Virus record (IMG/VR): IMGVR_UViG_3300011113_000747
Coordinates: 120,543-184,542 of that record
Origin: a virus
Direction: 5' to 3' (one strand)
Length of the DNA: 64,000 bases
Shown piece by piece: positions 28,933 to 63,034 of the stretch. Position numbers and translations under genes: made by a program. The notes below the pieces were generated by a model. The model saw only the letters and a list, made by a program, of their open reading frames with translations, was not told the DNA's origin and did not search any database. Position 1 is the first letter of the stretch; the number at the start of each line of letters is the position of its first letter.

Positions 28933-29823
28933 ATGAAGAAACAGAAAATTATTTTGACTCGTGGTCTGCCTGCGAGCGGCAAGAGTACTTGGGCTAAAGA
29001 GCAAGTTGCAAAAGGCAACGGCAAGGTGAAGCGCGTCAACAAAGATGACTTGCGCGACATGATTGATGCTGGCATCTGGTCCAAGACCAATGAGCAGATG
29101 ATTCTCAATGCTCGTGATGCACTTGTTGCTCTCTTTATCAGCAACAAAGAAGTGGAAACGGTGATCGTTGATGACACCAACTTTGAAGAGAAACACTTTA
29201 ATACCATGGTTGGGTATGCAGACTCTTATACCAAGCTTTGTAATAGAGACATCACTGTTGAATACAAGGACTTCTTGGATGTGTCTCTTGATGAGTGCTT
29301 GCATCGTGATTCTCTACGTGCTAAGCCTGTTGGTGAAAAGGTCATCAAGGGCATGCATCAGCGCTACATTCTTCCAACCATTAAAGATGCTCCTGTCGCA
29401 AATAAGAAAGGCAATTCCATCATTGTAGACATTGATGGTACTCTTGCGCATCGTTGTGATCGCAACTGGTTTGAGTACGAAAAAGTTGATCAAGACCACC
29501 TGGATGTTGTTGTATACGGCATTGTAGAAGCTTTCCAAAAGAAAGGTTATACCATTCTCATTGTATCTGGTCGCGAGGGTACTGAAGTCTGCCGTCAAAA
29601 GACTCTTGCATGGCTCGACAAGCACAAGGTTCCTTATTACGATCTTATGATGCGTAAAGAAGGTGACCATCGTCGTGACTCCATTGTCAAGAAGGAGATC
29701 TACGATACTCTCATTAAGGATAAATTCGATGTGGAATTTGTCCTGGACGACAGAAAATCTGTTTGCGATATGTGGCGCGAAATCGGCCTCAAATGTCTCC
29801 AGGTAGCCCCTGGAGACTTTTGA
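28933..29823 (+). CDS. pseT: Polynucleotide 5'-kinase / 3'-phosphatase (T4 PseT-like)
   Basis: 296 residues (T4 Pnkp 301). N-terminal kinase with P-loop GLPASGKS (11-18) and R/D-rich acceptor site; C-terminal HAD phosphatase with DIDGT (166-170, catalytic Asp pair) and VLDDR near the end. It heals RNA or DNA ends (5'-OH to phosphate, removal of 3' or 2',3'-cyclic phosphate) for sealing by an RNA ligase, in T4 to repair host tRNA cut by anticodon nucleases. Own early promoter. Confidence 0.93.
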   Translation: MKKQKIILTRGLPASGKSTWAKEQVAKGNGKVKRVNKDDLRDMIDAGIWSKTNEQMILNARDALVALFISNKEVETVIVDDTNFEEKHFNTMVGYADSYTKLCNRDITVEYKDFLDVSLDECLHRDSLRAKPVGEKVIKGMHQRYILPTIKDAPVANKKGNSIIVDIDGTLAHRCDRNWFEYEKVDQDHLDVVVYGIVEAFQKKGYTILIVSGREGTEVCRQKTLAWLDKHKVPYYDLMMRKEGDHRRDSIVKKEIYDTLIKDKFDVEFVLDDRKSVCDMWREIGLKCLQVAPGDF

Positions 29824-30568
29824 TCTCCTCTTCTGTTGCATACCTGATTTTGTACCCTCTATGGTGTGACTGTCTGCCTCTCAAAGTATCAGAAAGACAG
29901 TTTCTGTTAAGGTTATACTTCTCAACTATATTAAGAAGCCCACATTCAAATGTAGTTGAGAGGTCCGGGTGAGTGAGTAAAAACCATCTATAACTTTTAT
30001 TAAAAATTTTACCAGCTTTTGCAAGTTCCCTCATTTTAGCTAATCGTTCTTTTTGGCTTTCAGATAGCTTTTCAAGCATTTGTGCTGATTTAACTTTACC
30101 TGGATTATTTTGTTTAAACTGTATTCGTTTAAGTTCTAAATGCTTTTGACCCTCTTCTGACTGTAACCACTTTTTGCGTGTTGCTGCAGCTTTTGCTTTA
30201 GTTTCTTCTGTGTGGTGCTTGCCATACATATGATTAGCAGCACCACATCTACCGACTTTATGATATGCACCGGTATGACCACCTCTACCACCTTCATGCG
30301 TATTGTATCCTAATTCACGGCTGTTATATTCTTTTATGAGCTCACGCTCTCTTGCAAGCCCCATTTCTTTACTTTCTACAACTTCCAAAGTTTCAATGAT
30401 GAAACTTTCAGGTCCATATTTCTTAATTGCTCTAACAAATTTGTAATCATATTTGCCTGAGAAAGCATCCCTACAATGACGACGCCACCTTTGTTCAATT
30501 GTTTGACCTGTATAGCCAATATACATCTTGCTATTTTTTGTATTTGTAATTTTATAAACTGTGTGCAT
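29789..30568 (-). CDS. GIY-YIG homing endonuclease (Seg-like)
   Basis: 259 residues from the ATG at 30568. GIY-YIG core VYKITN ... MYIGYTGQ at the N-terminus, catalytic Arg in RWRRH, Glu in the E.E..LI helix, then NUMOD-type DNA-binding repeats (GRCGAANHMYGKHHTEETKAKAA, SYRWFLLTHP). I prefer this start to the ATG 21 nt earlier because a late box lies exactly 5 nt before it. The last 35 nt overlap the end of pseT on the other strand. Confidence 0.85.
   Translation of the reverse strand: MHTVYKITNTKNSKMYIGYTGQTIEQRWRRHCRDAFSGKYDYKFVRAIKKYGPESFIIETLEVVESKEMGLARERELIKEYNSRELGYNTHEGGRGGHTGAYHKVGRCGAANHMYGKHHTEETKAKAAATRKKWLQSEEGQKHLELKRIQFKQNNPGKVKSAQMLEKLSESQKERLAKMRELAKAGKIFNKSYRWFLLTHPDLSTTFECGLLNIVEKYNLNRNCLSDTLRGRQSHHRGYKIRYATEEEIKSLQGLPGDI
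29795..29821. terminator. Bidirectional hairpin at the pseT / endonuclease junction
   Basis: GTCTCCAGG / CCTGGAGAC perfect 9-bp stem, 5-nt loop (29804-29808), TTTT on the plus strand. It lies inside the last codons of both convergent genes, where both proteins end in similar residues (PGDF and PGDI). Confidence 0.6.
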
Positions 30569-30581
30569 GCAATTATTTATT
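30569..30581 (-). promoter_or_regulatory. Late promoter of the GIY-YIG gene
   Basis: Minus strand AATAAATA (TAAATA at 30574-30579), 5 nt, ATG at 30568. Confidence 0.68.
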
Positions 30582-30635
30582 GAACTCATGTAGTAAATAT
30601 GTGGACATTTTGAATTTTAGTTGTATATTTTATTT

Positions 30636-52331: not shown

Positions 52332-52440
52332 GACTCAGCAGCGTGGACAGTGACATGCATGGCATTATAACAAGGCAATACCTAGTCCGCTATGTAGTCT
52401 TGCAAGGGCGGAGCTGGTGCAATTCCAGCCTGAGTCACCA
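52332..52440 (+). tRNA. Atypical tRNA-like element A
   Basis: Perfect 7-bp acceptor GACTCAG/CTGAGTC, discriminator A, encoded CCA (52438-52440), perfect T-stem GCTGG/CCAGC with loop TGCAATT, and a 4-bp D-like stem GCGT/ATGC. The part between (52359-52412) has no standard 5-bp/7-nt anticodon arm; it can form a GGCATT/AATACC hairpin with a 10-nt loop and a TCCGC/GCGGA arm. 109 nt long. It could be a tRNA with an insertion, a degenerate tRNA or a tRNA mimic. Confidence 0.55.
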
Positions 52441-52443
52441 AAT

Positions 52444-52535
52444 AGGAGGATAGTTTAACACGCGAAAACCAGAGTTGTATTGGCAACCGCCTTGAGTGGC
52501 ATCTGATGCAGGTTCAAGGTCTGCTCCTCCTTCCA
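52444..52535 (+). tRNA. Atypical tRNA-like element B
   Basis: Perfect 7-bp acceptor AGGAGGA/TCCTCCT, T at the discriminator, encoded CCA, T8-A9, D-stem GTTT/AAAC, T-stem GCAGG/TCTGC with canonical TTCAAGG loop. The middle lacks a standard anticodon arm: either GTTG/CAAC with a 6-nt loop plus GCC/GGC, or CAGA/TCTG enclosing 28 nt. It lies 3 nt after element A. Confidence 0.55.
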
Positions 52536-62956: not shown

Positions 62957-63034
62957 ATCCGGGCATGTTCCAAGGCAAGGCGACTTTGACTCCAAATCAG
63001 AGTGAGTAGAGTTCGATTCTCTATCCGGATGCCA
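62957..63034 (+). tRNA. tRNA-Trp (anticodon CCA)
   Basis: Acceptor ATCCGGG/TCCGGAT, anticodon stem TTTGA/TCAGA with loop CTCCAAA (anticodon CCA), T-arm TAGAG/CTCTA with TTCGATT loop, discriminator G, encoded CCA end. The D-stem is short (3 bp). Confidence 0.9.

Follow-up and report, generated by a model that had tools for sequence, protein, structure and literature searches.

The window analysed here comprises the last 64,000 nucleotides of a virus record of 184,542 bases. The record also has 21 ordinary tRNAs in an array of their own. The window encodes PNKP and two RNA ligases, one of them of the T4 Rnl1 type, and ARAGORN calls only three tRNAs in it: tRNA-Leu, tRNA-Met and tRNA-Trp. Near the first two lies element A, a tRNA frame consisting of an acceptor, a D arm, a T arm and an encoded ACCA around a 54-nt middle (Table 1).

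Element A is missed by ARAGORN, and an Rfam scan of the window leaves it unmatched both at the gathering threshold and at E ≤ 10. The Rfam tmRNA models likewise give no match at E ≤ 10; the Rfam 15 covariance models hold no family for element A, and 12 relative loci give tRNA matches only. A relaxed pattern of acceptor, T arm and CCA, run over the window in both orientations, returned the three ARAGORN tRNAs, element A and the neighbouring element B, and nothing else.

The 7-bp acceptor and 5-bp T stem, both called perfect in the original prediction, and the encoded CCA that it reported are confirmed from the sequence. The prediction had also stated that the 54 nt between the arms cannot form a normal anticodon hairpin, and indeed element A has no anticodon arm (5 bp, 7-nt loop, U33); it is rejected by ARAGORN as well as by the Rfam tRNA model. 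What was called a “D-like arm” is present but was understated, as it has a good 5-bp stem. The observation on element A is confirmed; its interpretation is partly supported. The fold z-score of the element is −2.3.

Table 1. Element A, its parts and other features of the window (window coordinates).
Feature	Position	Strand	Remarks
GIY-YIG/NUMOD3 homing endonuclease	29789..30589	-	adjoins the PNKP gene
tRNA-Leu	51345		called by both ARAGORN and Rfam
tRNA-Met	52252		called by both ARAGORN and Rfam
Element A, whole	52332..52440		
Acceptor-like stem P1, 5' strand GACUCAG	52332..52338	+	7/7 bp with 52430-52436
Linker CA, 2 nt (positions 8-9)	52339..52340	+	family consensus CG
D arm GCGUG(GACAGUGA)CAUGC	52341..52358	+	5/5 D-stem pairs covary
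D stem GCGTG/CATGC	52341..52345 / 52354..52358		5 bp including one G.U; 8-nt loop, in DNA GACAGTGA
Variable domain, 54 nt	52359..52412	+	replaces anticodon arm; probable hairpin GUCUU(GCA)AGGGC near 3' end
T arm GCUGG(UGCAAUU)CCAGC	52413..52429	+	G55, not U55; 4/5 pairs covary; D-loop AG / T-loop G55 association
T stem GCTGG/CCAGC	52413..52417 / 52425..52429		loop TGCAATT
Acceptor-like stem P1, 3' strand CUGAGUC	52430..52436	+	pairs with 52332-52338
Discriminator A73 and encoded CCA	52437..52440	+	A73 at 52437, CCA at 52438-52440; read from sequence
Element B, 92 nt	52444..52535		rejected by ARAGORN and Rfam
tRNA-Trp(cca)	62957..63034		called by ARAGORN; 3-bp D stem; under Rfam threshold

A family of phage RNAs with a constant frame

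A counterpart of element A is carried by a related contig of 224,703 bases (L002), whose metallophosphoesterase is 95% and RNA ligase 78% identical to those of the window. Conservation between the two elements covers 27 nt at the 5' end and 29 nt at the 3' end; the D stem changes from CAUGC to CACGC, and the middle is 33 nt longer in L002 (87 nt). Just upstream of position 7160 in L002, before the counterpart, lies a gene with a tRNA-like end (..GGGGGTTCGAATCCCTCACTGCGCACCA) and an irregular 5' part; the window has a normal tRNA-Met at the same place. Element B is shared with L002 at 98% identity, and its internal hairpins GUUG(UAUUGG)CAAC and CCGC(CUUGA)GUGG are likewise preserved there; close copies were found in none of the other fetched loci. 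It has a perfect 7-bp acceptor (AGGAGGA/TCCTCCT), a TCCA end, the T arm GCAGG(TTCAAGG)TCTGC and the D arm GTTT(AACACGCGA)AAAC.

When the D-arm hairpin alone (GCGTGGACAGTGACAYGC) was searched against all viral contigs, 89 loci were found. Most of those examined have a 7-mer upstream that is very different between loci and, downstream, the T arm GCNGG(UGCAAUU)CCNGC followed directly by the exact complement of the 7-mer. The resulting elements, termed type 1, span approximately 80–220 nt. The T-arm query alone (GCCGGTGCAATTCCGGC) gave 106 loci with about 27 new elements, in many of which the D stem is altered on both strands (GCGTT/AACGC, GCGCT/AGCGC, GTGTG/CACAC, GCACG/CGTGC) and the loop stays GACAGUGA. 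Together, about 89 distinct elements are distributed over dozens of unrelated phage contigs. The element finder required paired stems, which inflates the pair counts for stems outside the fetch query; the fair evidence is therefore the fetch with a single arm, after which the remaining arms were found. The joint family pattern matches 106 times in 101 fetched loci and not at all in 5.1 Mb of shuffled sequence. The type-1 model (P1, CG, a 5-bp D arm with GACAGNGA, a T arm with UGCAAUU, P1') finds element A, which departs from the consensus in having CA, not CG, as its linker.

Across 56 distinct frames, 99.4% of the cells are paired and both sides have changed in 16 of the 17 pairs, including all seven pairs of P1, a result equalled by none of 500 shuffles; if the pairing partner is slid along the sequence as a control, pairing falls to 30–47%. 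This strong covariation had been proposed earlier as a check in related phages. The acceptor, D and T arms of a tRNA are all present in element A, and the earlier view of it as tRNA-like, not a normal tRNA and not a product of decay, is right.

The D-loop GACAGUGA and the T-loop UGCAAUU are almost invariant across the family, with G15, A16, A18, G19 and G21 of the D-loop invariant in the core alignment, and the linker is conserved as well (C8 in 98% and G9 in 91% of 89 elements). The acceptor GACTCAG of element A was found again in about 12 loci, with unrelated middles. An encoded CCA is present in only 4 of 88 relatives and is not a family trait, while in 57 of the 88 there is an additional G-1:C73 pair, which in histidine tRNA serves as the identity pair. 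These two features make tRNA-type end processing uncertain for the family; the encoded ACCA of element A does fit tRNA-type ends.

For the conserved 5' block, annotated phages and plasmids yielded nothing convincing, and the 16 exact D-arm matches among sequenced prokaryotes (84,980 genomes) include real elements only at L143, L147, L149 and perhaps L142. No description of the family was found in the literature. The type-1 elements constitute a family of phage RNAs that is widespread yet had not been catalogued before; its members are tRNA-like but not tRNAs. Their structure is well supported, and the function proposed for them is putative.

Other closed RNA elements occur in the fetched loci. 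One of these, here called type 2, has the organization P1 - GACGAUACU - variable domain - GGGAAAAUA - P1', in which P1 has 4 bp that covary (GGCC/GGCC, GUCC/GGAC, GCCC/GGGC). It is present in 18 copies in 16 loci (L206, L218, L088, L054, L047, L067, L118, L195, L234 and others), where many copies stand next to a type-1 element in tandem, with CCA(G/A)UUUAUG as the spacer between them. The same arrays have further closed elements: in L206, one (GGGAAUCA...UGAUUCCC) lies upstream of the type-1 element, and L086:7475-7595 is a closed element with the T arm GCGGG(UGAAAUU)CCCGU and CATCCCACCA.

The altered elbow

In tRNA, G18G19 of the D-loop docks on U55C56 of the T-loop. The type-1 loops have AG in the D-loop and G55C56 in the T-loop, and in element A, too, the two sites are replaced in a coupled manner. 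Covariation strongly supports docking of the type-1 D-loop on the T-loop in the manner of a tRNA elbow, in which A18.G55 and G19-C56 would replace G18.U55 and G19-C56. The same coupling is found in ordinary-size (66–95 nt) tRNA-like genes of the fetched loci: 41 have AG with G55, 146 have GG with U55 and 10 are mixed (Fisher 4e-31, a p value that ignores relatedness). The mixed cases include several with ..AGG.., in which A18G19 is still on offer.

Both elbow states are found within one genome in L164, L176, L227 and L163, and the first three have both kinds of tRNA, each with the matching D-loop. The A18.G55 elbow coexists with, and covaries against, GG/UUC inside the same tRNA arrays. L085 and L191 have related domains, with the elbow AG/UGC in the former and GG/UUC in the latter. 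Two independent elements, L071/L082 and L133, are exceptions to the rule and have AG with UUC. Since the AG/UGC covariation is also seen in ordinary phage tRNAs, the type-1 family looks tRNA-derived, and the elbow comparisons support both this descent and what would be a real tertiary contact. Neither A18 nor G55 comes up in two reviews of the elbow and the T-loop, a silence that does not amount to evidence of absence.

L163:826-4126 and L165 (minus strand) have nearly complete sets of ordinary-size tRNAs with the T-loop UGCRANU and the D-loop AG, and ordinary-size tRNAs of this kind also occur in L164, L189 and L021. A tRNA-Ser-like gene at approximately 3161-3256 of L163 has the anticodon loop CUCGAGA and a T-loop that is not UUC; similar unannotated stretches are present in phage DSS3_MAL1 and Caulobacter phage BL57 (MN602268, PQ287320).

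The exchangeable domain and its genomic setting

The middle of the type-1 elements is hypervariable and ranges from 29 to about 170 nt, its sole conserved position being the A directly before the T stem (98%). On average, it is slightly more structured than shuffled sequence (mean z −0.5). A stem of at least 6 bp with its 3' strand ending 1–4 nt before the T arm was observed 42 times vs 14 expected; structure beyond this closing stem is specific to subfamilies. For a candidate universal pseudoknot joining the loop of the closing stem to the 5' part of the middle, suggestive by eye, the conditional test gave a median p of 0.33, with 17% below 0.05. The middles of element A and its L002 counterpart are weakly similar (p = 0.008), and the small hairpin before the T arm of element A has an equivalent in L002, GUCUA(AUCC)UAGGC, both read directly from the sequences.

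Domain subfamilies recur with different acceptors, and one frame also occurs with different domains. In L109, L204 and L095, the flanks and frame align at 80–96% or better. L109 and L204 are 83–96% identical directly outside and through the frame, whereas the identity of their domains is 33.0%, vs 32.3% for shuffled sequence, and the break in the alignment coincides exactly with the frame boundaries; L095 represents a third domain state. At the level of these alignments, related phages are shown to replace the domain as a unit and keep the frame. Within the subfamilies L190/L156 and L077/L218/L226, compensatory changes keep the domain structure. At L227:3057-3248, the middle of a type-1 frame is occupied by a whole tRNA-like gene, which scores 36 bits in Rfam and whose own anticodon loop is interrupted by a 54-nt insert.

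The elements lie between genes, or directly 3' of a stop codon and 5' of a ribosome-binding site. No partner gene is conserved within 6 kb of the elements, the biggest cluster comprising 13 of 97 loci, and a riboswitch or leader of one gene was rejected as the loci have no common neighbour. A guide or antisense role was set aside as well: 22 domains, including that of element A, had no match at E ≤ 1 in 50,697 annotated phages, and within the fetched loci mainly family relatives were matched. An ATG precedes GCAATCG in many elements, but the element lengths are spread across all three frames, which indicates that this overlapping start codon does not signify coding. The suggested link to RNA-repair genes was not upheld for the RNA ligases, which are missing from most of the 40 family records (PF09414 in four, the RNA ligase PF09511 in one). 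No tRNA scores above the Rfam cut-off in 28 of the 40 records, which places the type-1 RNA outside the translation set.

Interpretation and relation to known systems

The current thinking, to which about an even chance is assigned, is that element A is a tRNA-derived, non-decoding type-1 RNA in which a constant elbow frame holds an exchangeable working domain that serves in conflict. Host tRNA-maturation enzymes would cut the RNA out of phage transcripts by reading the stack of the acceptor and T arm, and the fold of the frame may protect the RNA ends, by analogy with engineered tRNA scaffolds. Element A would not decode. It is the exposed, fast-replaced domain that would do the work, most probably by binding to or antagonising a fast-changing factor of the host or of a competing phage. 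More tentatively, the elements may be RNA-effector cassettes, in which the D- and T-arm blocks let recombination swap the domain as a unit and so give each phage its own rapidly evolving RNA against hosts or competing phages, some phages in addition having near-whole tRNA sets on the A18.G55 elbow.

Alternatively, the frame could be mere punctuation for processing or stability in polycistronic phage transcripts, and the middle a tolerated filler that drifts freely. The position of the elements between genes or between a stop codon and a ribosome-binding site would agree with this, as would the weak average structure and lack of family-wide conservation of the middle. However, middles of 80–170 nt persist in compact genomes, the closing stem beside the T arm is enriched, and the compensatory changes in the two subfamilies preserve domain structure, all of which makes the filler explanation unlikely. 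The original prediction had offered a decoy for tRNA-cutting toxins as one option, taken here as a decoy for tRNA-cutting or tRNA-sensing host defences. The tRNA-like elbow and acceptor, the RNA-repair genes of the window and the hypervariability, which an arms race would suit, speak for such a decoy, but one aimed at an anticodon nuclease should present an anticodon loop, which the family lacks, and the few ligases in the family records also count against it, so that it is rather more doubtful still.

Removal of a small intron or insertion from a tRNA, with re-ligation by the phage's own repair enzymes, would agree with the intact acceptor and T arm and with the presence of PNKP and two ligases, and the tRNA inside the relative L227 does have an intron-like insert. 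Against this, remnants of an anticodon stem are no commoner at the middle ends of 87 relatives than in shuffled controls (5-bp matches at the junction: 7 observed, 6.6 expected), and identical D- and T-loops occur with dozens of acceptors, which is unlike tRNAs of several isotypes. With ligases, the RNA-repair genes assessed, missing from most family records, a spliced tRNA, akin to the tRNA with a small insertion suggested earlier, is very improbable. Least probable of all is an odd but working tRNA that still decodes a codon: CCA is encoded in element A, and the ordinary tRNAs of some phages use the alternative elbow too, but there is no anticodon hairpin of 5 bp and 7 nt, tRNA models reject the element, and relatives swap the middle wholesale.

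The family is widespread in uncultivated phages and has escaped notice until now because tRNA finders reject its members and Rfam has no model for them. A coordinated change of the universal elbow from G18.U55 to A18.G55 would bear on how phage tRNAs are recognized, modified and attacked in the host.

Like canonical tRNA (RF00005), type-1 RNAs have a 12-bp stack of a 7-bp acceptor and a 5-bp T stem, a 2-nt linker, a D arm, a 7-nt T-loop with U54, C56 and A58, and elbow docking. Unlike it, they have C8, the A18/G55 elbow and a middle of 29–170 nt in place of the anticodon arm, their CCA is mostly unencoded, and they commonly have the extra G-1:C73 pair. Other non-decoding RNAs that imitate parts of tRNA are the tRNA-like structures of plant viruses and the YrlA RNAs of bacteria, but they have other hosts and partners; type 1 has no Rfam match and combines a constant frame with an exchangeable domain. 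tmRNA is a tRNA-like domain holding a large insert, as type 1 is, but it has no D stem and contains a tag reading frame and pseudoknots, whereas type 1 has a D stem, and element A is not matched by the tmRNA models. An interaction between the D- and T-loops of tmRNA is reported in a reference cited in PMC7912444. In engineered tRNA scaffolds, recombinant RNA is placed at the position of the anticodon arm (PMC3753655). Type 1 would work in a similar way, with a constant tRNA frame and foreign RNA at the anticodon position, but it is natural, phage-encoded and has a rewired elbow, and would represent a natural use of the tRNA frame as an exchangeable carrier.
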